From the NCBI RefSeq assembly GCF_900172325.1, contig NZ_FWFR01000002.1:434001-498000 (forward strand): DNA of 64,000 bases, read 5' to 3'. Shown one piece after another: positions 49,038-64,000 of the stretch. The notes beneath the pieces are model-generated. The model worked only from the letters and a program-made list of their open reading frames with translations, had not been told where the DNA came from and did not search any database. Source of the stretch: Oceanibacterium hippocampi. Lineage in GTDB: Bacteria > Pseudomonadota > Alphaproteobacteria > Sneathiellales > Sneathiellaceae. Within the stretch, counting starts at the first letter, position 1; every line of letters begins with the position of its first letter. Both the position numbers and the translations under genes were made by a program.

Positions 49038-50681
49038 TCAGAAGGCGTCGTCATAGGCGCGCGCTCCGATCTCGCAGGCAACCAGCGTGAAGCCGTCGCG
49101 GCGAAAGCCGGCGGCCAGTTCCCGTTCCAGCGTCGCCACGTCGGTTGCCCGGCAGCCATGGCCTCCCATCGCGGCCGCCACGGCGGCTAAATCCGTCGCC
49201 CCGAAATCGACGCCGACATTGCGCCGGCTCGCGCCGCGCTGTTTCAGTTCGATCAGCGCCAGCGACGCATCCACCATGACCAGGACGACCAGCGACAGCT
49301 CGAGATCGCGAAGCGTGGCAAGCTCGCCCAGCACCATCTCGAGCCCGGCATCGCCCATGACCGCCAGGACCGGCCGGTCCGGTGCCGCCAGCTTGTGGCC
49401 GATCGCGAGCGGAAGCGCGCAGCCCATCGTGCAGAGCGCGGTCGATTGCAGCAGGGTCCGTTCGGCGTAACAGGTCCACATCTGGCTCAGCAGGATGCGG
49501 TGGGCGCCGCTGTCGGCGGTCACCACGGTGTCCCGGGGAACGGCCCGCCGGGCCGCGGCGAAGGCCGCATGCGGCCCCCAGGCGGGCCTGTCGGCGAACA
49601 GGCCGTGCAGCCGGGCACGGGCCTGCGCCGGCGCCCGCTCCGGCCAGGTCTCGCCGCCCGGCTCAAGGCCGGCGCCGATGGCGGCGATGCCCCGTCCGAC
49701 ATCGCCGACGAACGAGAGCGCGGCGCCGTGCATGCCGTGCCGGTTCGGAACATGGGTGAATTCGATGGCTTTCGCCGGGTCCCAGGGATCACGCCAGCCG
49801 ATGCGCATCTCGATCGGGTCGTAGCCGGCCAGCAGGATCAGGTCGGCGGCCTCCAGCAGCGGCATCACCTCGCGGTCCGAACGGGGCGACAGGCCGTGCC
49901 CGCCGAGCGCAAGCTCGTGATCCTCGGGCAGGATGCCCTTGGCCTTGTAGGTCGTGAGCAGCGGCATCCGGAACCGCTCGACGAGCGCGCGGATCTCGAT
50001 CCCCGCGTCGTGATGCAGCGCGCCCATGCCGGCGATCATCAGGGGCCGCACCGCGTTCGCCAGCATTGCCCGGGCCTGGTCCAGCGCCGCCCCGCCGGCC
50101 GGCGCCATCGGCGGTTCCATCGGCACCGCGACCCGGCCCGGCTCGCGCTGGTCGTGGCCGGCGAGTCCGATCGGGACATCGACATGGACAGGCCCCGGCG
50201 GATCGGCGAGCGCGATCGCCACCGCCCGGTCGATCAGCAGGTCGGCGGCCCCGTCGACCATCGACAGGCTGGCCTTGGTGATCGGCCGCATCAGCGCCTG
50301 ATGGTCGAAGACCTGGTGCGTATAGGATGCGGCTTCGACCGCATCCACCGCGCCGGACAGCACGATCAGCGGCACCTGGTCCTGCCAGCCGTTGGCGACC
50401 GCGTTGACCCCGTTGGCAAGGCCCGGGCCGATGGTGGCAAGCAGGATGCCCGGAGCACCGGTCGCGTGGAAGCTGCCCTCCGCCATGAAGGCGGCCGAAT
50501 TCTCGTGCTTGCAGAGGGTGAAGGCGATGCCGGCATCGTCGAGCGCCTGCATCATCGCCAGGACCTCGCCGCCGGGAATGCCGAAGGCATGGCGGCAGCC
50601 GGCGGCATGGAGCCGCCGGGCGATCAGCGTCGCGACGTCAGGCAACGCCGCGGTCCCGGCCACTGCCGTCCGCGGCGGCAA
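49038..50681 (-). CDS. Thiamine pyrophosphate enzyme, acetolactate synthase/decarboxylase-like
   Basis: 547 residues. The N-terminal FGIPGGEVLAMMQALDD and CKHENSAAFMAEG contain the conserved catalytic Glu of TPP decarboxylases, and the central domain (LMIAGMGALHHDAG) is present. In the C-terminal cofactor motif, the GDG start is GDA (MGDAGLEMVLGEL) and the usual Asn of the Mg site appears as Val (VMVDASL), which is unusual. The enzyme could decarboxylate a 2-oxo acid; it is probably not the biosynthetic IlvB. Its 5' end overlaps the acyl-CoA dehydrogenase gene by 44 bases. Confidence 0.85.
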   Translation of the reverse strand: MPPRTAVAGTAALPDVATLIARRLHAAGCRHAFGIPGGEVLAMMQALDDAGIAFTLCKHENSAAFMAEGSFHATGAPGILLATIGPGLANGVNAVANGWQDQVPLIVLSGAVDAVEAASYTHQVFDHQALMRPITKASLSMVDGAADLLIDRAVAIALADPPGPVHVDVPIGLAGHDQREPGRVAVPMEPPMAPAGGAALDQARAMLANAVRPLMIAGMGALHHDAGIEIRALVERFRMPLLTTYKAKGILPEDHELALGGHGLSPRSDREVMPLLEAADLILLAGYDPIEMRIGWRDPWDPAKAIEFTHVPNRHGMHGAALSFVGDVGRGIAAIGAGLEPGGETWPERAPAQARARLHGLFADRPAWGPHAAFAAARRAVPRDTVVTADSGAHRILLSQMWTCYAERTLLQSTALCTMGCALPLAIGHKLAAPDRPVLAVMGDAGLEMVLGELATLRDLELSLVVLVMVDASLALIELKQRGASRRNVGVDFGATDLAAVAAAMGGHGCRATDVATLERELAAGFRRDGFTLVACEIGARAYDDAF

Positions 50682-51861
50682 GACGGAGATGCCCGTCGCG
50701 GGTCTGCGGCAGCTTCATGCCGAGGATCGAACCGGCGACCTGGGTGCGCAGGATCTGGGCCGTGCCCCCGCCGATGGTGAACATGCGGACATCGCGGGCC
50801 ATCCGCTCGAGCGGGCGGTTCCGGGAATAGCCGGCGGCGCCGTGAACCTGCAGCGCGTCGTTGACTACCTTGAAGGCGGTTTCGGCGGCGAAGATCTTCG
50901 CCTGCGCCGCCTCGCGCATGTCGGGAAAGCCGGTGCCGGCACCGGCCGCCGCCTTGTAGATCAGCGACTGGGCGGCGGCGAGGCCGATCGACATGTCGGC
51001 CAGCATCCATTGCAGGCCCTGGAACTCGGCGATCGGGCGGCCGAACTGATGGCGTTCCTTCGCATAGGCAAGGGCGATCTCGTAGGCGCCCTGGGCGATC
51101 CCGAGGGCGACCGTGCCGGCGCCGACGCGCTGGGCATTGTAGGCGTTCATCAGGCCGGCAAAGCCGCGTTTCAGCCCCTCCGGCGGGATCAGCGCCATGG
51201 CCGCCGGGATCTCCAGGTCCTCGAACAGGATCTCGGTTTCGGGAATGCCGCGCAGACCCATCGCGGGTTCGCGCCGGCCGATCTTCAGCCCCTCGTCCTC
51301 GCCGCGCACGGCGATGAAGCCGCCGATGCCCTGGTCCTGCCCGTCCTCGATCACGCGCGCGAAGATCAGGTGCAGGCGCGAGACGCCGCCGCCGGTGATC
51401 CAGTGCTTGCGGCCGTTCAGGACATAGCGGTCGCCACGCTTCACCGCGGTCGTCGTCATCTCGGTGGCGGCCGATCCAGCGTCCGGTTCGGTGATGCAGA
51501 TCGCCGGCTTGTCGCCGTCGAGCACCAGCGCCGCGGCGCGGCGCTTCTGCGCCTCGGTGCCGAACTTCATGATCGCGCCGATTGCCCCCATGTTGCCCTC
51601 GACGACGATCCGGCCGGTCACACCGCAGACCTGCGCCATCTCCTCGATCACCAGCACGACATCGAGATAGGACAGCCCCTGCCCGCCGTATTCGGCCGGG
51701 ATCGTCATCCCCATGAAGCCCGCCTCGGTGAGCCTCGCCACGTTGTCCCACGGATACTCCTCCGTGCGGTCGACTTCCGCCGCCCGGCCCAGGATCTCGC
51801 CCCGGGCCAGCGCCCGCGCACGCGACTGCAGCCGCTGCTGTGCCTCGTCCAGTCCGTACAT
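50638..51861 (-). CDS. Acyl-CoA dehydrogenase with GGGT in place of the catalytic EGT motif
   Basis: 407 residues; start at 51861 preceded by AAGGAAT. Typical features are MTIPAEYGGQGLSYLD, CITEPDAGSAATEM, RHWITGG-like substrate region (NGRKHWITGG) and QFGRPIAEFQGLQWMLADM. At the position of the catalytic Glu, where standard enzymes have YEGT, this protein has IGGGTAQILR. Such variants are known among non-canonical acyl-CoA dehydrogenases that use another base or a different reaction. It is followed by the overlapping TPP enzyme gene, suggesting a shared pathway. Confidence 0.9.
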   Translation of the reverse strand: MYGLDEAQQRLQSRARALARGEILGRAAEVDRTEEYPWDNVARLTEAGFMGMTIPAEYGGQGLSYLDVVLVIEEMAQVCGVTGRIVVEGNMGAIGAIMKFGTEAQKRRAAALVLDGDKPAICITEPDAGSAATEMTTTAVKRGDRYVLNGRKHWITGGGVSRLHLIFARVIEDGQDQGIGGFIAVRGEDEGLKIGRREPAMGLRGIPETEILFEDLEIPAAMALIPPEGLKRGFAGLMNAYNAQRVGAGTVALGIAQGAYEIALAYAKERHQFGRPIAEFQGLQWMLADMSIGLAAAQSLIYKAAAGAGTGFPDMREAAQAKIFAAETAFKVVNDALQVHGAAGYSRNRPLERMARDVRMFTIGGGTAQILRTQVAGSILGMKLPQTRDGHLRLAAADGSGRDRGVA

Positions 51862-52019
51862 CGGAATTCCTTCCAGTTGCCCAACCCGGGACCGTCGAAC
51901 CACGGCAGGCCCGGCGTCGTTCTATCCTCGACCGCGACGGCGCGGGCCGCAAGCCCGCTCGACAGCCCGTCGCCGGCGCAATAGATAGGTGTCCAGACTT
52001 CTTGCAAGGGAGCGCCATC

Positions 52020-53618: not shown

Positions 53619-55406
53619 TCAGGCCGTCTCGATCGCCTTGAGGCCCAGTTCCTCGATCATCGCGTCGCGCATCAGGAACTTCTGCGCCTTGCCGGTCACC
53701 GTCATCGGCAGTTCGTCCCGGAAGCGGACGTAACGCGGGACCTTGTAGTGGGCGATCTGGCCCTGGCAGAAGTCGCGGATCTCCTCCTCGCTCGACGTCT
53801 GGCCCGGCTGAAGGACGATCCAGGCGCAGAGCTCCTCGCCGTAACGCTCGCTCGGCACGCCGAAGACCTGGGCCTGCTGCACCTTCGGATGGCGATAGAG
53901 GAACTCCTCGACCTCGCGCGGATAGATGTTCTCCCCGCCCCGGATCACCATGTCCTTCACCCGGCCGACGATGTTGCAATAGCCCTCGGCATCGAGGGTC
54001 GCGAGATCGCCGGTATGCATCCAGCCGCCGGCGTCGATCGCCTCGGCCGTCCGCTCGGCATCGTTGTAATAGCCGCGCATCACCGAATAGCCGCGCGTGC
54101 AGAGTTCACCCTGCTCGCCGACCGGCACCACCTGCCCCTCCCCGTCGACGATCTTGACCTCGACATGGGGATGAATGCGGCCGACCGTCGCGACCCGTTT
54201 CTCGAGCGGATCGTCGACGTCCGACTGGAAAGAAACCGGGCTCGTCTCGGTCATCCCGTAGGCGATCGTCACCTCGCTCATATGCATGTCGGCGACGACC
54301 CGCTTCATCACCTCCACCGGGCAGGGCGAGCCCGCCATGATGCCGGTCCTGAGCGAGCCGAGCTGGAACTTCCGGAAGTCAGGGTGATCCAGCATCGCGA
54401 CGAACATGGTCGGCACGCCGTAAAGCCCGGTGCAACGTTCGGCCTCGATGGCGGCAAGCGTCGGCCCCGGCTCGAAACCCTCGCCCGGGAAGATCATCGC
54501 CGCGCCCTTGCTGACGCAGCCGAGCGTGCCCATCACCATGCCGAAGCAGTGATAGAGCGGCACCGGGATGGCGAGCCGGTCGACCTCGGTGAAGCCGATC
54601 GCCCGGGTCACGAAATGGGCGTTGTTGACGATGTTGTAGTGGGTCAGCGTCGCACCCTTGGGCGAGCCGGTGGTGCCCGAGGTGAACTGGATGTTGATCG
54701 GCTCGTCCGGATCGAGGGCGGCCGAGATGCCGGGCAGCCTGAGTTTCTGCGCCGGTCCGCCGAGCCGCATCAGATCGCCGAAGGCGAGCATGCCCGGCGT
54801 CGGCTCCGAACCCATCCGGACGACGATGCGGAGCGCGGGCAGCTTCGCCGCGCGGAGCTTGCCCGGCTTGCAGTCGGCCAGTTCCGGCGCCAGTGTCTGC
54901 ACCATGCCGACATAGTCCGAGGTCTTGAACCGGTCGGCGGTAACGAGCGCCTTGCAGCCCACCTTGTTGAGCACGTATTCGAGCTCCGACAGGCGGTAGG
55001 CCGGATTGATGTTGACCAGCACGAGCCCGATCTGCGCGGTCGCGAACTGGGTGAGCAGCCATTCCTTCCGGTTTGGCGACCAGATCCCGATGCGGTCGCC
55101 CTTCTCCAGCCCGAGGGCGAGCAGGCCGGCGGCGAGGTCGTCGACCTCGCGGTCGAGATCGTAATAGCTCAGCCGCTCGCCTGTCGCGCTGAAGACGGCC
55201 GCGTCGCGCGGCCCGAAGCGGGCCACGGTCGCCGCCATCATTTCCGGGATCGTCTCGCGCCGGAGCGGTTCCGAGCGGTCGCCGGAGACATAGGACTTGC
55301 CGTCGAGCGGCCGGATGCAGGCGCCGGCCACGGGCGCGCCGCCGCGCGCCGCATCGCGCAGGCTGACGGACAGCCGCCCGCCGCGCGGTTCAGACAGTTT
55401 CGACAT
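53619..55406 (-). CDS. AMP-binding acyl-CoA synthetase
   Basis: 595 residues. The phosphate loop [17 protein letters not shown], the core [13 protein letters not shown] and the C-terminal hinge [22 protein letters not shown] are those of medium/long-chain fatty acyl-CoA synthetases. The terminal [11 protein letters not shown] contains the catalytic Lys. It ends 53 bases before the amidase part of the next leftward gene begins to be read, and may be a separate unit or the last gene of the transporter string. Confidence 0.92.
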
Positions 55407-55459: not shown

Positions 55460-57979
55460 CTACATCGCCCGCCAGTCGCCCAGTTGCTCGAAGGCGTGCG
55501 CGGCCCGATAGATCGTCATCTCGTCGTAATTCTTGCCCACCAGCATCATGCCGACCGGCAGGCCCTCGCTCATGCCGCAAGGCAACGACATGGCCGGAAA
55601 GCCCGAACTGTTGAAGGGCGCGGTGTTGCCGACCATCTCGAACGCCCGCTGCACGTAGAGCGCGAGCGCCGCGTCTGGCGGCGGGATCTCCTGCGCCTTC
55701 ATCGGCAGCGTCGGCAACAGCAGGAGATCGTAGGCGCGGAACGCCTCCTTGTAGCGCAGCGTGGCCCGGCGCATCAGGTTCTGCGCCTTGCCGTAGAAGC
55801 GGCCGCGATAGCGGGTCTGGAAATACTCGCCGAGGAACATGCAGGTCTTCAGGCTCGAGGAAAGCTCGTCGGCCCGGTTTTCCCAGTTGGCGAAATGGTC
55901 GACCATGCTCGGCAGGAACAGGCCGCGATGGTTGGTGCCCGACGTATTGCCGTGCATCATCATGTCCTGGAGGCCCTCGACCGTGATCGCGGTCCAGTAG
56001 TCAGGCACCAGAAGATGATCGGGGATCGAGATTTCCTCGACCCGGGCGCCGAGTTCGCGGTAGCGCTCGGCCGCGGCGCGAACCTTCTCGTCGACGTCCG
56101 CCTCGCTTTCCGGCCGGCCGAAGCCCTCGCGCAGGATGCCGATCCGGAGCCCCTGCACGCCCTTGCCGAGCGCCTCCGTGTAGCGATAGGTGCGCGGCTT
56201 GTATTGCCGGGGATCGAGGCCGTCCTCGCCGGCCAGGACCTCGAGCAGCAGCGCGTTGTCGGCGACATTGGCGGTCAGCGGGCCGACATGGTCGATCGTC
56301 TGCTCGACCGGCATCACGCCGGTATAGGGCACGAGGCCGTGCGTCGGCTTCATCCCGTAAGTCCCGCAATTGCTCGACGGAATGCGGATCGAGCCGCCCT
56401 GGTCGCCGGCGATCGCCATGTCCACCTCCCCGGTCGCGACGAGCACCGCCGAACCGCTCGACGAGCCGCCGGCCATGTAGCCGTGCTTGTAGGGATTGTG
56501 GACCGGACCGGTGGCGTTGGTGTGACTGCCGCCGGACAGGCAGAGGTATTCGCAATGGGACTTGCCGACGATGGTCGCGCCGGCATCGAGCATGCGGGTG
56601 ACGATGGTGGCGTCGATCTCCGGCACGTAGCCTTCCATGATCGAGGAGCCGTTCATCATCGGCACGCCGGCCAGGCAGACGGTATCCTTGAGGACGATCC
56701 GCTTGCCGCGCAGCGGGCCGTCCGCCGCGCCCTTGATGTCGGTCTTGTAGTACCAGGCGTTGAGCGGATTCTCGCTGGCGTCCGGCCGGTAGCCGGGGGA
56801 ACGGGGATATTTCACCTCCGGCAGGAAGTCGGGCGCCGCGGCAAGCCGGTCGTAGGCCTCCATGTAGGGCTCCATGACCGCGAGGTATTCCGCGAGATCG
56901 CTGTCACTCATCGACAGCCGGAGCCGTTCGCTCATCTCGCGCATCTGGCCGAGGGTCGGTCGTTTCACGCTCATTGTCGTCGCCTTCGCTGTCGCCGGGC
57001 TGAAGGTTGAAGAGGTCGCGGGCCGCGCGCCGGCCGGCACCGCGGATCGGGATGGCGGCGGGGCCGGGCGCAACGGCATCCGTTCCGCCTCGGGCAACCG
57101 GGCGCCCGGGTCCCGTCGCTCGCCGGACGGGTGACGGAGCGGCGCGTCGAAGACCGCCGCCGCCGGGGCGCCTGCCGGTTGCGTCGCCGCGGCGGGCGAC
57201 GCTTTCGGCGGTGTCCGCGCTACAGTCATCCGCCCGGTCGTCCGCGCCGCGCCGAAGCCGAGAAACTCCTCGACCCGGCCCTTCTGCTGCAGGTCGGCGC
57301 CGGAAATCTCGGCGGTGATCCGGCCCCGCTCGAGCACCAGGACGCGGTCGGCAAGCGCATGGATGAACTCGAAATTCTGCTCGACCAGCAGGATCGAGAG
57401 CCCGCGATCAGCCTGCAGGCCCGTCAGGGTCTGCTCCATTTCCTCGATGATCGACGGCTGGATCCCCTCCGTCGGCTCGTCCAGCAGCAGAAGCCAGGGA
57501 TCGCCCATCATCGCGCGGGCCAGCGCCAGCAGCTGCTGCTCACCGCCGGACAGCGCGCCGCCCTCCCGATCGATCAGGCGGCGGACCTGGGGAAAACTGT
57601 CCAGCACGCGCTCGATCGTCGCATTCTCGTCGTCGCCGCCGACCTCCTGGAAGGCCATCCGCAGGTTGTCGCGAACGCTGAGCTTCGGGAACACGCCGCG
57701 ACCCTGGGGCACATAACCGAGGCCGCGCCGGGCGCGCTCATGCGCCGAAAGCTTGCCGATGTCCTGGCCGTCGAAGCGGATGGATCCGCTCTTCGCCGGC
57801 AGCAGGCCGATGATCGTCTTCAGCAGGGTCGACTTGCCCATGCCGTTATGGCCGAGCACACCCACGATCTCGCCCGACCCGACCGCCAGGTCGATGCCGT
57901 GCAGGACCGGAATGCGCCCGTAGCCGCCATGCAGGCCCTTGACCTCGAGAAGTTCGGTCGCCGTGTTCACGATCGGCAC
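55460..57979 (-). CDS. LIV-type ABC ATPase fused in frame to an amidase-signature hydrolase
   Basis: 839 residues in one open frame. Residues 1-242 form a complete LivF/UrtE-type ATPase: Walker A GHNGMGKS, Q-loop PQGRG, signature LSGGEQQLLALAR, Walker B LLLLDEPTEG and the LIV-type VEQN. Residues 243-335 are a Pro/Ala-rich linker. Residues 336-839 are a complete amidase with the Ser-cis-Ser-Lys triad: Lys in IVLKDTV, cis-Ser in AGGSSSGSA and the nucleophile in GDQGGSIR. An internal ATG at 56974 with AAGG upstream could also give the amidase alone. No stop separates the two halves. The likely function is import-coupled hydrolysis of an amide; the fusion could also arise from loss of a stop. Confidence 0.85.
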   Translation of the reverse strand: MPIVNTATELLEVKGLHGGYGRIPVLHGIDLAVGSGEIVGVLGHNGMGKSTLLKTIIGLLPAKSGSIRFDGQDIGKLSAHERARRGLGYVPQGRGVFPKLSVRDNLRMAFQEVGGDDENATIERVLDSFPQVRRLIDREGGALSGGEQQLLALARAMMGDPWLLLLDEPTEGIQPSIIEEMEQTLTGLQADRGLSILLVEQNFEFIHALADRVLVLERGRITAEISGADLQQKGRVEEFLGFGAARTTGRMTVARTPPKASPAAATQPAGAPAAAVFDAPLRHPSGERRDPGARLPEAERMPLRPAPPPSRSAVPAGARPATSSTFSPATAKATTMSVKRPTLGQMREMSERLRLSMSDSDLAEYLAVMEPYMEAYDRLAAAPDFLPEVKYPRSPGYRPDASENPLNAWYYKTDIKGAADGPLRGKRIVLKDTVCLAGVPMMNGSSIMEGYVPEIDATIVTRMLDAGATIVGKSHCEYLCLSGGSHTNATGPVHNPYKHGYMAGGSSSGSAVLVATGEVDMAIAGDQGGSIRIPSSNCGTYGMKPTHGLVPYTGVMPVEQTIDHVGPLTANVADNALLLEVLAGEDGLDPRQYKPRTYRYTEALGKGVQGLRIGILREGFGRPESEADVDEKVRAAAERYRELGARVEEISIPDHLLVPDYWTAITVEGLQDMMMHGNTSGTNHRGLFLPSMVDHFANWENRADELSSSLKTCMFLGEYFQTRYRGRFYGKAQNLMRRATLRYKEAFRAYDLLLLPTLPMKAQEIPPPDAALALYVQRAFEMVGNTAPFNSSGFPAMSLPCGMSEGLPVGMMLVGKNYDEMTIYRAAHAFEQLGDWRAM

Positions 57980-57980
57980 C

Positions 57981-58697
57981 TCATGCCTTCTTGCCGAGAT
58001 AGACGTCGCGCACCCGCCGGTCGGCGAGCACCCGGTCGACCTGGTCGTCGACCAGCACCGCGCCCTGGTAGAAGACCGTCACCCGGTCGGCGATGGCGCG
58101 GATGAACTGCATGTCATGCTCGACGATGATCAGCGCGGCGTGGCGGTTGATGTCGCGGATGATCGCCGACATCCGTTCGACTTCCTCCGCCGTCATGCCG
58201 GCCGCCGGCTCGTCGAGCAGCACCAGCCAGGGTTTCGCGGCCAGCACCGTCGCCAGCTCGACCCGCTGGCGCTCGCCGTGGGCCAGACGATCGACGGTCC
58301 GTTCGGCGATGTCGCCGAGATCGAAGCGTTCGATCATCTCCTCCACGGCGAGCCGGGCCTCGGGCGCCGAATGCACCCGCTGGGCCGAGATCCAGACATT
58401 CTCGGCGACCGTCAGCCCGTCCATGACGCTCGGCACCTGGGTCTTGATGCCGACGCCGAGCCGCGCGATGCGATGCGGATCGAAGCCGGTCGTGGTCTCG
58501 CCACGGATCATCACCTCGCCCTCGGTCGGGCGCAGAAGACCGGTCAGGCATTTGAAGAAGGTGCTCTTGCCGGCCCCGTTCGGCCCGATCAGGCAGCGCA
58601 GTTCGCCGGCGCGGAGCTGGAAGTCGACATTGTCGACCGCGGTGACGCCACCGAAGCGCATCGACAGGCCCTGGGTCTCGACGACGATCTGGCTCAT
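57981..58697 (-). CDS. ABC transporter ATPase, LivG/UrtD type
   Basis: 238 residues from the ATG at 58697, which overlaps the stop of the permease gene (ATGA). Walker A GPNGAGKST, the long Q-loop region with VGIKTQVPSVMDGLTV, the signature LAHGERQRVELATVL (an unusual AHGER in place of SGGQ, as in UrtD) and Walker B WLVLLDEPAAGM are seen. It ends one base before the start of the ATPase-amidase fusion. Confidence 0.93.
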   Translation of the reverse strand: MSQIVVETQGLSMRFGGVTAVDNVDFQLRAGELRCLIGPNGAGKSTFFKCLTGLLRPTEGEVMIRGETTTGFDPHRIARLGVGIKTQVPSVMDGLTVAENVWISAQRVHSAPEARLAVEEMIERFDLGDIAERTVDRLAHGERQRVELATVLAAKPWLVLLDEPAAGMTAEEVERMSAIIRDINRHAALIIVEHDMQFIRAIADRVTVFYQGAVLVDDQVDRVLADRRVRDVYLGKKA

Positions 58698-59719
58698 GAC
58701 GCGTTGTCCTGGCGCCGGGCCGGGCGTCGCGAGCGGCGCCGGCGGCGGCCGAAGGTCCGGAAGAACAGGTCGCGGATGGTCGGCACGATGCCGCGCGGCA
58801 GGAGCAGCACGACGAGCACGAGGATCAGGCCGAGCACGATCGAATTGTCGACCATCGACTGCTGGCCAAGGAGGAATTTCAGGTAGCCGAGCGCCACCGC
58901 GCCGAAGATCGGTCCGGCCAGCGTGCCGAGGCCGCCGACGATGCACCAGATGATGATCTCGGCAGACTGGCCGAGGCTGAACAGGCCGGGCGTGACGATC
59001 TCCGCCCAGCTCGCATAGAGCGTGCCGGCGAGCCCGGCGATCGCCCCGCCGACGGCGAACAGCAGGGTCTTCCGCGCCCGAACGTCATAGCCGAGAAGCT
59101 CGGCGCGCAGCTCGTTCTCGCGGATGCCGACGGAGACCCGGCCGAACGGACTGGCGAGCAGCCAGCGGACCAGCCCGTAGACCAGCAGGAGCGCCACCGC
59201 GCAGACGATGTAGAGCCGGTCGTCGTAGAGATAATCGTCGGGGCTGCCCGGCACGTTCAGGGTCTGGTAGCCCGGGATCCCGTTGAATCCGCCCAACCGG
59301 GCATCGCCGATGACATGGGCGGAGCCCGCCGTGGCATTCATGAACTTGAAGAAGATCAGCGTCACCACGAGCGTGATCACGCCGAGATAGACGTCCGAGA
59401 GCCGGCCGTAGAACATCATCGCGCCGAGGACCAGCGCGAACAGCGCCGGCACCACGATGCCGAGGATGAAGGGCACGCTGCTCTCGCCGATATTGACCGC
59501 GGCGATGGCGTAGCTGTAGGCACCGAGACCGTAGAACGCCGCCTGGCCGAAGCAGAGGATGCCGCCGAAGCCCCAGACGAGGCCGAGGCTGAGCCCCAGC
59601 ATCCCGTAGATCACCAGCACGGTGAGCGTGTAATACTGCATCACGAACGGCAGCAGGATCAGCGCCACCGCGCCGATCGCCATCGCCCGCCAGATCGACA
59701 GAGCCTCGCCCGGGCGCAT
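58694..59719 (-). CDS. ABC transporter permease, LivM/UrtC type
   Basis: 341 residues with eight to ten helices. The landmarks GLVWGFGGILCFGQAAFYGLGAY near the N-terminus and FGRVSVGIRENELRAELLGYDVRARKTLLFAVGGAIAGLAGTLYASW in the centre are typical of the LivM/UrtC permeases. The C-terminal tail is basic. It overlaps the first permease by one base (TGATG) and the ATPase gene by four, so the whole unit is translationally coupled. Confidence 0.93.
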   Translation of the reverse strand: MRPGEALSIWRAMAIGAVALILLPFVMQYYTLTVLVIYGMLGLSLGLVWGFGGILCFGQAAFYGLGAYSYAIAAVNIGESSVPFILGIVVPALFALVLGAMMFYGRLSDVYLGVITLVVTLIFFKFMNATAGSAHVIGDARLGGFNGIPGYQTLNVPGSPDDYLYDDRLYIVCAVALLLVYGLVRWLLASPFGRVSVGIRENELRAELLGYDVRARKTLLFAVGGAIAGLAGTLYASWAEIVTPGLFSLGQSAEIIIWCIVGGLGTLAGPIFGAVALGYLKFLLGQQSMVDNSIVLGLILVLVVLLLPRGIVPTIRDLFFRTFGRRRRRSRRPARRQDNAS

Positions 59720-60585
59720 CAGAGACGGCCCTTCAGGAAGCGCCCGGTGATCCCCTGCGGCAGCAGGCGGAGCAGGATCACCGCGGCGATCAGCAGCGCC
59801 ACCTCGCCGACCACGGGGGTCGCGGCGAAGGTGAAGATCTGGGCGACCACGCCGAGCAGACCGGCGCTCGACATCAGCCCGGCGATGATCGACGGCCCGC
59901 CGACGATCACGGTGATGAAGGCCTTGGCGATATAGGCGCCGCCGCTCGACGGCACGAGACCGACCAGCGGCGCCAGGATGCCGCCCGCCAGCCCGGCGAG
60001 CGCCGATCCGGCGACGAAGGTCACCATGTAGATGCGCGACGTGTTATGGCCGATCGCCGAGGCGATGTCCGATCGCTGCATCGTGCCGCGCGCGACCAGG
60101 CCGACACGTGTCCAGCGCAGCACGGCGAAGACCGCGAGCAGAAGGATCACCGCGACGACGATAATGAAGAAGTTGTAGCCGTTGATCTGGTAGGCGCCGA
60201 TCGTGAGGCCCGAGATCGGCGTCGAGATGCCGGTCGTCGTGTTACCGAAGATCATCGTCACCAGGCCGATGAAGAGCAGGCTGAGCCCCCATGTCGCCAG
60301 CATCGTGTCGACCAGCCGGCCGTAGAGATGGCGGATCACCAGCCTTTCGACGACGAGGCCGATCAGCCCGACGACGATCGGCGCGACGATGATCATCGCG
60401 ACATAGACGTTGATGCCGAGATTGACCGCGACGATGGTCGCGTAACCGCCCATCATCATGAACTCGCCATGCGCGAGATTGATCACCCGCATCATGCCGA
60501 AGACCACCGCAAGCCCGGCGCCGATCAGCACCAGGCTGGCCACCGCATAGAGAATTTCGACAAGAATGACGGCCGCGAGATCCAT
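59719..60585 (-). CDS. ABC transporter permease, LivH/UrtB type
   Basis: 288 residues, eight helices. GLAVVFGMMRVINLAHGEFMMMGGYA near the N-terminus and RSDIASAIGHNTSRIYMVTFVAGSALAGLAGGILAPL in the second half are the LivH/UrtB landmarks. It starts 67 bases after the binding protein gene and is the first of the two permeases. Confidence 0.93.
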   Translation of the reverse strand: MDLAAVILVEILYAVASLVLIGAGLAVVFGMMRVINLAHGEFMMMGGYATIVAVNLGINVYVAMIIVAPIVVGLIGLVVERLVIRHLYGRLVDTMLATWGLSLLFIGLVTMIFGNTTTGISTPISGLTIGAYQINGYNFFIIVVAVILLLAVFAVLRWTRVGLVARGTMQRSDIASAIGHNTSRIYMVTFVAGSALAGLAGGILAPLVGLVPSSGGAYIAKAFITVIVGGPSIIAGLMSSAGLLGVVAQIFTFAATPVVGEVALLIAAVILLRLLPQGITGRFLKGRL

Positions 60586-60652: not shown

Positions 60653-61879
60653 TCAGATCTTGATTTCGTACTGCTGGTTGTCGTCCGGATTGGCCTGGAG
60701 GTCGCAGACCGCCTGTGTATCGAGCGGCGGGCGCTGCGAGAAATCCTCGAGAACCTTCATCTTCTGGTCCTGGAATTCCATCAGATGCACGTCCAGCGTC
60801 GCATGATGGGTCTTCGGATCGATGGTCACCTTGCCGCCCGGCCCCTCGATGGACAGGTCGGCCTCCAGCGCCTCGATCACCGGCATGCGGTCCTGCGTCC
60901 CCGCCTTCTTGACCGCCTCGGCCCACAGCCAGACGCCCTGGTAGGTCGAGACCGCGAGTTCGTGGATGTCGTCGGTGTTGCCGAATTTCTCCGCCCACTT
61001 CTTCAGGAAGGCCTGGTTGGTCGGGCTCGCCAGCTCGTGCGAGTAGTTGTAGGCGACGCGGATGCCGTTGCCTTCCTCCGGTGTCAGCACCTTGTGTTCG
61101 TTGCCGACGCCGATCGTGGTGGAGGCCATCGGGATCTTCTTGTTGAGGCCGGCCGCCGCCCACTGGCGGTAGAAGGACAGATGCGCACCGCCGACCAGGG
61201 CGGAGACGATCAGGTCGGGCGCCGCGCTCTGGATCTTGGCGATGGTCGAGCCGAAATCGGCGACATCGAGCGGGAAGAAGTCGGTCGAGACTACCTCGCC
61301 GCCGGCTTCCTGCGCATACTTGGTCACCCACTTGGCGGTGATCTGGCCGTAATTGTAGTCGGCCGCGAGGATATAGACCTTCTTGCCCCAGTCCTTCACG
61401 ACGTTCGGGATCAGCACCGCGGCCTGCTGTGCCGGGGTGACGCCGGTGATGAAGATGTTCCGGTCGCAGACCCCGCCCTCGTACTGGACGTTATAGAAAT
61501 AGAGCGTCTTGCTCTTGCGGAGCGTCGGCCGGATCGCCTCGCGCGAGGCCGACAGGATGCCGCCATGGACGACGTCGACCTTGTCCTGGCGGGCAAGCTG
61601 CTGGCCGTACTGCGTATAGAGCGCCATGTCCGACTGGGTGTCGTAGGAGACGAGCTCGATCTTCTCGCCGTTCAGGCCGCCGGCGGCGTTGATCTCCGCC
61701 ACGGCGAGCTCGGTCGCCTTCTGCATCGGCTTACCGTAGGCGTCGAAGATGCCGGAGGTGTCGAGGATCGAGCCGAGCTTGATCATCTCGGCGGCATGCG
61801 CCGGAACCCAGGGTACGAGGCTGGTCGTCGTGGCAAGGGCAGCCGCCCCCGCCAGCAGGTCGCGTCGGGTCAGGTTCAT
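60653..61879 (-). CDS. Substrate-binding protein, UrtA-like (amide/urea type)
   Basis: 408 residues. A twin-arginine-like export signal (NLTRRDLLAGAAALATTTSL, cleavage near AHA) is followed by a periplasmic type I binding fold: IKLGSILDTSGIFDAYGKPM and ILSASREAIRPTLRKSKTLYFYNVQYEGG fit the UrtA/FmdD branch for urea and short amides. The ATG overlaps the stop of the flotillin gene. The ligand is inferred only from the family and from the fused amidase. Confidence 0.9.
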   Translation of the reverse strand: MNLTRRDLLAGAAALATTTSLVPWVPAHAAEMIKLGSILDTSGIFDAYGKPMQKATELAVAEINAAGGLNGEKIELVSYDTQSDMALYTQYGQQLARQDKVDVVHGGILSASREAIRPTLRKSKTLYFYNVQYEGGVCDRNIFITGVTPAQQAAVLIPNVVKDWGKKVYILAADYNYGQITAKWVTKYAQEAGGEVVSTDFFPLDVADFGSTIAKIQSAAPDLIVSALVGGAHLSFYRQWAAAGLNKKIPMASTTIGVGNEHKVLTPEEGNGIRVAYNYSHELASPTNQAFLKKWAEKFGNTDDIHELAVSTYQGVWLWAEAVKKAGTQDRMPVIEALEADLSIEGPGGKVTIDPKTHHATLDVHLMEFQDQKMKVLEDFSQRPPLDTQAVCDLQANPDDNQQYEIKI

Positions 61880-63519
61880 CAGTTGTCCTCCGTTTTCTGG
61901 TTGGGGGCGCCGCCCGAGACCGTGCCGCGCTGCGCCGACCGGCTGGCGCTCTCCTGAACCCGGCCGGCCAGATTGACATCCATGTCGAGACCGATCTCCT
62001 CGCCGATCCGACGCATCGCCGGAAGCTGCACCGCCATGCCGAGGATCGACTGCAGGGCCTGGTCGAAGGGTCCGCTGATCCCCTCGCCCGCACCCGAACC
62101 GCCGCCGCCGCCGCCGTTGCCGCCGAGGCCCGCGATCTGGTTGATGCGGATCGACTTGATCTTCTCGACCGGCTTCATCATCTGCGTGGCGATCTCGGGC
62201 AGCCGGTCGAGCCGGTGCATGTCGAGCTTCATGCGGATGACCGGCTCGCTGAGCCCGTTCTCGGCCTGGATCAGCGCCGACTTCCCTTCCGATTCGGCCA
62301 ACATGCGGGCGCGCTCGGCGCCGGCCCGAAGCTCGGTCGCATTCGCTTCCGCCTGCGCCATCGCGACCAGGTTGTCGACCTGGGTCTTGATCCGCGACTT
62401 CTCGACCTCGGAGGCCTCGCGCGCCTTCATCAGGGCGATCTCGCGGGAACGTTCGGCGGCGGCCTGGTCCTTCTGGGTCTGGACATGTTCCTGGGCCAGC
62501 ACGACCTCGGCCCGCGCCTTCTCCGATTCCGCCGCCGCGCGGGTCTCGTCCGCCTTCTTGGCGGCGAGCCGGATCGCGCTGTCGATCTCGGCGAACTCGA
62601 CCGCGTGCAGGGCCTCGATCTCCTGTTCGCGCAGGCTGCGGTCGCGGGCGATCTCGGCCTGTTTCAGGGCCGCCTCGCGCGCGATTTTCGCCGCCTCGAT
62701 CCTGCGGTCGGCGTCGCTCCGGCTCTGCGCGATCCCGGCATCGCTCTCGGCCTCGCGCTCCTGCAGCGCCTGGCGCTGGGCGATCTCCGACTCGCGATGC
62801 TGCTGTTCCAGCGAGATGCGGCGCTGCGCCTGCTCGAGCTGGGTCTCGCGAACGACGATATCGGCCTCGGCCTCGATCCGCGCGCGCGCCTTGCGGTTGT
62901 CGGAGACGATCTCGGCAAGCTTCCGCATGCCGACCGCGTTGAAGACGTTGTTCTCGTCGAGCGCCGCGAACGGCGTCTGGTCGAGATGGACCAGCGACGC
63001 GGCATCGAGCTTCAGCCCGCTCTCGCCGAGATTCTCGGCAAGGAGGGCCGCGACCGCGTTGACGAAGGCGGCCCTTCCCTGGTGCAGCGCCTCCATGGTG
63101 CGCTCGGCGGCGACCGCCTGCATGGCGTTGATCAGCTTGCCCTCGATCAGGCGCTGCAACTCGCCGCCACGCAGGGAACGCGCGCCGAAGGCCTGGGCGG
63201 CGGTGGCGATGCCCTCGGCCGTCGGGATCACGCGGACATGGAATTCCATCTCGACGTCAAGCCGCAGGCGATCCTCGGTGATCAGCGACTGGCGCCCGGC
63301 CCGGGCGATGTCGAGGCGCTGCGTGTTCATCGCGATCACATCCACCTTGTGGAGGATCGGGAGCGCCAGGCAACCGCCGTCGATGACCACCAGGCGCCCG
63401 CCGGCGCCGGTCCGGATCAGCGCCGTGTCACGTCCGCTCTTGACGTAGAAGCGATTGAGAAAAAGCACCGCCAGGACGATGGCGACGATCAGGCCGAGAA
63501 CGAGCAAAAGCCAGAGCAC
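61879..63519 (-). CDS. Flotillin-like SPFH protein
   Basis: 546 residues from the GTG at 63519, which has GGGAGGA five bases upstream; an ATG at 63540 would place that ribosome site inside the gene. One N-terminal membrane helix, an SPFH domain (about 30-200; FLNRFYVKSGRDTALIRTGAGG and QSLITEDRLRLDVEMEFHVRV), a long Ala/Glu/Arg coiled coil (about 210-430) and a Gly-rich C-terminal stretch. This is the flotillin/YqiK architecture of membrane microdomain scaffolds. Its stop overlaps the ATG of the binding protein gene, tying it to the amide transporter unit. Confidence 0.9.
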   Translation of the reverse strand: MLWLLLVLGLIVAIVLAVLFLNRFYVKSGRDTALIRTGAGGRLVVIDGGCLALPILHKVDVIAMNTQRLDIARAGRQSLITEDRLRLDVEMEFHVRVIPTAEGIATAAQAFGARSLRGGELQRLIEGKLINAMQAVAAERTMEALHQGRAAFVNAVAALLAENLGESGLKLDAASLVHLDQTPFAALDENNVFNAVGMRKLAEIVSDNRKARARIEAEADIVVRETQLEQAQRRISLEQQHRESEIAQRQALQEREAESDAGIAQSRSDADRRIEAAKIAREAALKQAEIARDRSLREQEIEALHAVEFAEIDSAIRLAAKKADETRAAAESEKARAEVVLAQEHVQTQKDQAAAERSREIALMKAREASEVEKSRIKTQVDNLVAMAQAEANATELRAGAERARMLAESEGKSALIQAENGLSEPVIRMKLDMHRLDRLPEIATQMMKPVEKIKSIRINQIAGLGGNGGGGGGSGAGEGISGPFDQALQSILGMAVQLPAMRRIGEEIGLDMDVNLAGRVQESASRSAQRGTVSGGAPNQKTEDN

Positions 63520-63702
63520 GGTGTCCTCCCCCCTCCGCATCCGGGGCCATGCACGGCCGGACGCAATCGGATCAACGCCGAGATCTACGCATCATTTATT
63601 TTCTATTTCAAGTGTTTTATTTTCCGTTTCAACATTTCTGCGAACCCGGCCGAAAGCCACGGAAAGGCTGGCGAGACTCCCGGTCGACGGCCTGGTCGCG
63701 GC
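63520..63702 (-). promoter_or_regulatory. AT-rich promoter region of the flotillin-transporter unit with tandem repeat
   Basis: Two 17-base copies, TTTATTTTCTATTTCAA (63595-63611) and TTTATTTTCCGTTTCAA (63616-63632), differ at two positions and repeat with a 21-base period, about two helix turns. On the coding strand each copy begins TTGAAA, a -35-like hexamer. The region is strikingly AT-rich within GC-rich DNA. It could be a regulator operator, an UP element or doubled promoter. Confidence 0.55.
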
Positions 63703-64000
63703 TCAGAAAATCCGTTCGGGGGTCGCGAAAAGATGACCGTCGGCGCGGGCAAGATAGATCGGCAGCGCCTTCTTCTGGTTGTCCCAGTAGCGTCCCTGGC
63801 GGGCGCTGACGTATTCGAGCGGCTGGTTCGGCGCGAGCGCCATGCCGGGACCGGCCTGGGCGACCGCGGCGGCCAGGAAATTGACCCCTTCGTAAAGCGA
63901 CTGTCCGAGCGCGTTGAGGACCGGCGCATACTCGCCGTGGCAGGCGAAATAGCGTTCCTTGAAGGCGATGTTGCGGTCGGTCCGCAGCCCCCCGAAATAG
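63703..64000 (-). CDS. Periplasmic-binding-type protein, C-terminal part (cut by right edge)
   Basis: The leftward frame ends at TGA 63703-63705 and stays open to the window end, giving about 99 residues. The segments GLRTDRNIAFKERYFACHGEYAP and ALGQSLYEGVNFLAAAV fit the C-terminal part of a type I periplasmic binding fold as in AmiC-like amide sensors or ABC binding proteins. This is a tentative assignment. It is encoded just before the flotillin-amide unit in the same direction, and could be its sensor. Confidence 0.6.
   Translation of the reverse strand, partial: YFGGLRTDRNIAFKERYFACHGEYAPVLNALGQSLYEGVNFLAAAVAQAGPGMALAPNQPLEYVSARQGRYWDNQKKALPIYLARADGHLFATPERIF

Follow-up and report, generated by a model that had tools for sequence, protein, structure and literature searches.

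An alphaproteobacterial UrtE-type importer ATPase joined in one frame to an amidase, in an operon with a flotillin gene

The ABC importer UgpBAEC is co-encoded with UgpQ, a cytoplasmic hydrolase that acts on the imported compound as a separate protein. Separate-gene operons of an importer and an amidase are also found on Tistrella mobilis pTM2, Agrobacterium pAtAF1_95 and Aureimonas pAU20a, where genes for a binding protein, two permeases, one or more ATPases and an amidase are clustered. In Klebsiella and Pseudomonas, amiE/urt clusters contain importer and amidase genes, and uptake of acetamide or formamide has been inferred for them (PMC13209695). Importer-amidase operons and the family of each half described below are already known; the apparently new aspect is the covalent fusion.

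The window, by which we mean the whole analyzed stretch of 64,000 nucleotides from Oceanibacterium hippocampi, contains an operon that resembles these systems in that a hydrolase is encoded with an importer. It differs from UgpBAEC/UgpQ in that the hydrolase is fused to the transporter, and from the three clusters on pTM2, pAtAF1_95 and pAU20a, in which ATPase and amidase are separate proteins and flotillin is absent. Its features are as follows.

55460-57979, minus strand: fused gene for a UrtE/LivF-type ABC ATPase, a linker and an amidase (open frame; Pfam and NCBIfam matches for both halves; same fusion in 25 sequences)
57245-57979, minus strand: ATPase part, residues 1-245 (ABC_tran at 26-170; UrtE TIGR03410, 271 bits; invariant motif residues)
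56975-57244, minus strand: linker, residues 246-335, 42% Pro+Ala (frame and stop test; dN<dS; pLDDT < 50)
55463-56974, minus strand: amidase-signature enzyme, residues 336-839, including the N-terminal helical part, with Lys431, cis-Ser506 and Ser530 (NF005565 at full length; alignment to 3A1K/3A1I)
57981-58697, minus strand: UrtD/LivG-type partner ATPase, unfused (TIGR03411, 230.6 bits, below the cut-off of 304.1)
58694-59719, minus strand: UrtC/LivM-type permease (BPD_transp_2; TIGR03727, 250 bits)
59719-60585, minus strand: UrtB/LivH-type permease (BPD_transp_2; TIGR03622, 253 bits)
60653-61879, minus strand: UrtA/AmiC-type substrate-binding protein (Peripla_BP_6 and Peripla_BP_5)
61879-63540, minus strand: flotillin-family (SPFH) protein (Pfam Flot and Band_7; co-occurrence with the fusion)
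63703-64000, minus strand: terminal part of a second gene with the binding-protein fold, which continues past the window end (L120:3704-4921; Peripla_BP_6; adjoins the operon in most relatives)
53619-55406, minus strand: acyl-CoA ligase (AMP-binding) downstream of the fusion (NF009233, 886.5 bits, above the cut-off of 832; downstream in most clusters)

The fused gene is one uninterrupted frame of 839 codons plus stop, from a GTG start at 57979 to a stop at 55460. An earlier sequence-only reading of this DNA had reported a single frame of that length without naming the strand, and the frame is borne out on the minus strand. An alternative in-frame GTG lies three codons downstream, at 57970; on inspection of the sequence, the AGGUG ahead of it is better spaced, and the true product may be a protein of 836 residues that begins there.

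In the ATPase half, residues 26-170 match the Pfam family ABC_tran with 119 bits (cut-off 25), and the nearest NCBIfam model is UrtE TIGR03410, with 271.2 bits slightly below its cut-off of 285.8. Walker A (K49), Q-loop (Q92), signature (S144/G145), Walker B (D167/E168) and switch (Q201) residues are all present, and together with a co-encoded binding protein, two permeases and a LivG/UrtD-type ATPase they characterize this half as a LivF/UrtE-type importer ATPase. In the amidase half, residues 411-822 match Amidase PF01425 (304.3 bits, cut-off 27), and residues 336-838 match positions 1-505 of the 506 in NF005565 (PRK07235; 779.6 bits, cut-off 545). Because this match runs along the whole model, the amidase is complete, as had been claimed, including its N-terminal helical part. 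Its alignment with the amidase of the Rhodococcus nitrile pathway (3A1K/3A1I) spans 437 residues (E 6e-140); that solved enzyme, unlike the fusion, has no ABC ATPase attached. Lys96, Ser171 and Ser195 of 3A1K, which we take to be its catalytic triad, align with Lys431, Ser506 and Ser530, so that the Lys-cisSer-Ser triad occupies identical positions. The nucleotide-binding motifs and the triad had been read as intact, and all of these residues are indeed found and are invariant across 24 aligned fusions; the sole variation among the motif residues checked is a Ser/Thr swap at one Walker A position. Both halves look active because of this invariance. None of the solved chains listed contains both halves. 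A full-length structure model has a mean pLDDT of 57.6, with the ATPase part confident and the amidase part poor, probably as a result of a shallow alignment, and is uninformative on the relative placement of the two halves.

The fusion is present in 25 sequences including that of the window, all from Alphaproteobacteria. Five relatives from the same family (G003, G004, G007, G018 and G022) are fused in frame, without a stop. Nine more fused loci, from Nitratireductor alexandrii, Mesorhizobium, other Rhizobiaceae and alphaproteobacterial bins, belong to a different genome collection, and eight additional fusions, from further families, turned up among 385 sampled genomes of the class. On two complete Sulfitobacter plasmids, the fusion is a single gene annotated only as "amidase", which hides the ATPase half from annotation. 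A Pseudosulfitobacter plasmid, in which the match reaches the end of the record, probably carries another. Outside the class, a sample of the phylum gave five genomes from other classes that had a strong amidase match, and none of them has the fusion. The sequence-only reading knew of no established family with this domain order. We likewise found no published description in the open-licence literature searched, which omits most subscription journals, and PMC10781810 contains nothing on the transporters; the architecture is nevertheless recurrent. That recurrence, and the linked flotillin gene, had escaped the earlier reading.

In several unfused relatives, urtE lies directly before the amidase gene. 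Nitrile hydratase genes are close to the unfused clusters of Tistrella and Agrobacterium, and the latter also has an aldoxime dehydratase gene, which links the amidase lineage to carboxamide metabolism. No nitrile hydratase gene was found within about 9 kb on either side of two fused Sulfitobacter clusters in annotated records, which suggests that these two import the amide itself. Since the separate-gene relatives keep the same partners, the fusion is dispensable for the pathway.

One relative, G009, has neither the fusion nor the flotillin. In the UrtE tree, its UrtE (L112:4588-5361) nests among fused relatives with support of 99/97, and the protein terminates in a short linker remnant, ...FLGFGAARSTRATVG..., followed by a stop. 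Its amidase gene (L112:11933-13444) lies about 6.6 kb from urtE and groups with an unfused lineage in the amidase tree. G009 is best read as an apparent secondary split of a former fusion, with the amidase replaced by one of another lineage. In the amidase tree, a weakly supported branch (56/22) has all fused rows on the same side; the UrtE tree requires three changes and rejects one fused clade (p = 1.6e-6), partly owing to the nesting of G009. A single origin of the fusion is weakly allowed by the amidase tree and disfavored by the UrtE tree.

The window genome is a draft in 18 contigs, which might lead one to think that a frameshift or a sequencing or assembly error has joined two genes, and a high-GC linker may stay open by chance, as it did in a fraction of 0.39 of shuffles of the window linker alone. 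However, the same join occurs in 24 further sequences, two of them complete plasmids, and close relatives carry the fusion rather than all having separate genes with a stop near residue 242, the pattern by which the sequence-only reading would have recognized such an error. The joining region is Pro/Ala-rich as that reading had said, with a length of about 90 residues (246-335) rather than 93, and pLDDT is below 50 across residues 242-336. Across 23 linkers there are no in-frame stops, whereas the two alternative forward frames contain 25 and 20, and the linkers have 15 different lengths of 33-90 codons, every one divisible by three. In close pairs, the linkers align with whole-codon gaps and have a dN several-fold above that of either domain, and linker dN is below dS in each pair with estimable dS. 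Because dN is high yet below dS and gaps are of whole codons, the linker fits a translated, loosely constrained and fast-evolving tether. An artefact is rejected on the basis of the fused relatives and the coding tests of the linker, and we regard its chance as negligible.

One chain could still be accompanied by a second product, with a readthrough fusion and a free amidase initiated at the internal ATG, 56974. All fusions retain the Met with which the amidase begins, and the Shine-Dalgarno duplexes ahead of it are as a group somewhat stronger (mean -5.5 kcal/mol) than those of control internal ATGs (-3.7 kcal/mol). However, they are weaker than those of the separate relatives (-8.7 kcal/mol; p = 0.0002 for fused versus separate amidase starts), and the independent start that the sequence-only reading had proposed to look for is weak in the window, at -4.3 kcal/mol. 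Relative to the separate genes, the Shine-Dalgarno appears to have been largely lost in fusions, and such dual output seems to us rather improbable, even though in three of them (L074, L077 and L078) the duplex is still strong, at about -11 kcal/mol; in these, an independent start may persist, which would give fused and free amidase. It could also be argued that adjacent urtE and amidase genes were joined simply by loss of the urtE stop, giving one chain without benefit beyond a fixed stoichiometry. The side-by-side genes of unfused relatives, the fast evolution of the linker and the apparent return of G009 to separate genes are consistent with such neutrality. That the fusion has been retained in many families whose sequences have diverged widely, that its indels preserve the frame, that the catalytic residues do not vary and that the internal Shine-Dalgarno is largely lost all speak against it, and we consider it unlikely.

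We favor a functional fusion, placed in its operon. The gene order is flotillin, binding protein, UrtB, UrtC, UrtD, the UrtE-amidase fusion and acyl-CoA ligase, and an operon with the binding protein, UrtB, UrtC, UrtD and usually the ligase is conserved among fused clusters. The frame containing the UrtD gene, 57981-58946 on the minus strand, is with 321 residues too long for UrtD; the likely start is the ATG at 58697, which overlaps the urtC stop and gives 238 residues. The importer resembles the urea importer UrtABCDE in subunit make-up and in the best NCBIfam matches of its ATPases, permeases and binding protein. However, none of the five subunits reaches its urea-transporter cut-off (score/cut-off: UrtE 271.2/285.8, UrtD 230.6/304.1, UrtC 176.7/296.2, UrtB 189.4/250.3, UrtA 242.4/492.75), and UrtE carries an amidase; a true urea transporter is rejected on these scores. 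The nearest solved structures of the binding protein are 8TG1, the urea-binding 7S6E/8HIC/7S6F and the amide-binding AmiC 1PEA.

Judged from sequence, it is fairly probable that one polypeptide serves both as the ATPase subunit of an amide/urea-type (HAAT, UrtABCDE-like) importer and as an amidase that hydrolyzes the imported carboxamide, tethered at the cytoplasmic face. The sequence-only reading had proposed that the amidase is tethered to its own importer, which would hold if UrtB, UrtC and UrtD take up the ATPase half into their complex; the conserved operon supports this assembly, and import may then be coupled to hydrolysis. The ATPase half would pair with UrtD beneath the UrtB/UrtC permeases, and the flexible linker, 33-90 residues depending on the genome, would keep the amidase near the permease's cytoplasmic exit. 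A small neutral amide, once imported, could leak back across the membrane, and a tethered amidase could cut the incoming amide at the exit to a charged carboxylate and ammonium before this back-leak occurs. The neighboring ligase would usually activate the acid to a CoA thioester and commit it to CoA metabolism. Because the fusion involves UrtE but not UrtD, there would be one amidase per importer. The Rhodococcus amidase presumably dimerizes, and a dimer, if formed here as well, could bridge two importers, a speculation that would fit a clustering role of the flotillin.

The flotillin gene scores above both Pfam cut-offs (Band_7 53.8 bits, cut-off 23.6; Flot 119.1 bits, cut-off 27). Of the fused loci, 22 include sequence upstream of the gene for the binding protein, and all of these have the flotillin gene; the 10 unfused loci for which at least 4 kb of upstream sequence is available all lack it. 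Tree-based independent contrasts of fusion and flotillin point in the same direction in 3/3 cases, a number too small for significance alone. The cluster L107 has the fusion and the flotillin, with the acyl-CoA ligase absent within about 6 kb downstream, and G009 has a ligase without the fusion or the flotillin; flotillin thus tracks the fusion and not the ligase. SPFH proteins are thought to aid the assembly of membrane complexes, although this is debated (PMC8656257, on Agrobacterium membrane domains). The flotillin may gather the transporters in membrane patches, and, given how tightly the two genes are linked, the fusion protein is a concrete candidate for the client of a bacterial flotillin. 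The fuller proposal, that of a self-contained uptake-and-hydrolysis unit in which a carboxamide ABC importer carries the amidase covalently on one ATPase, depends on the operon's flotillin for clustering and physically couples import to the first catabolic step, we put forward as tentative. Assembly into the importer, an amide substrate, trapping or channelling and a role of the flotillin are what we infer in it. Whether the import of a nutrient is physically coupled to its first catabolic step is a question usually debated on the basis of loose associations. In this case, the link is covalent in many genomes and apparently undone in G009, and the separate-gene relatives are natural controls, which makes the benefit of tethering directly testable.

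The second binding-protein-fold gene is a probable ligand sensor; beyond it lies a divergent gene with a match to a MarR profile, and an equal order is annotated in Sulfitobacter. Elsewhere in the window, 50638-51903 (minus strand) encodes an acyl-CoA dehydrogenase-like protein that matches NF042439, 3-sulfinopropanoyl-CoA desulfinase, with 681 bits (cut-off 600), and it adjoins a thiamine-diphosphate enzyme gene at 49038-50681 (minus strand); a role of this pair (49038-51903) in organosulfur degradation is possible. Upstream, outside the window, NosZ-like and NosD-like genes (L120:10120-13386) place a nitrous oxide reductase cluster near the operon.
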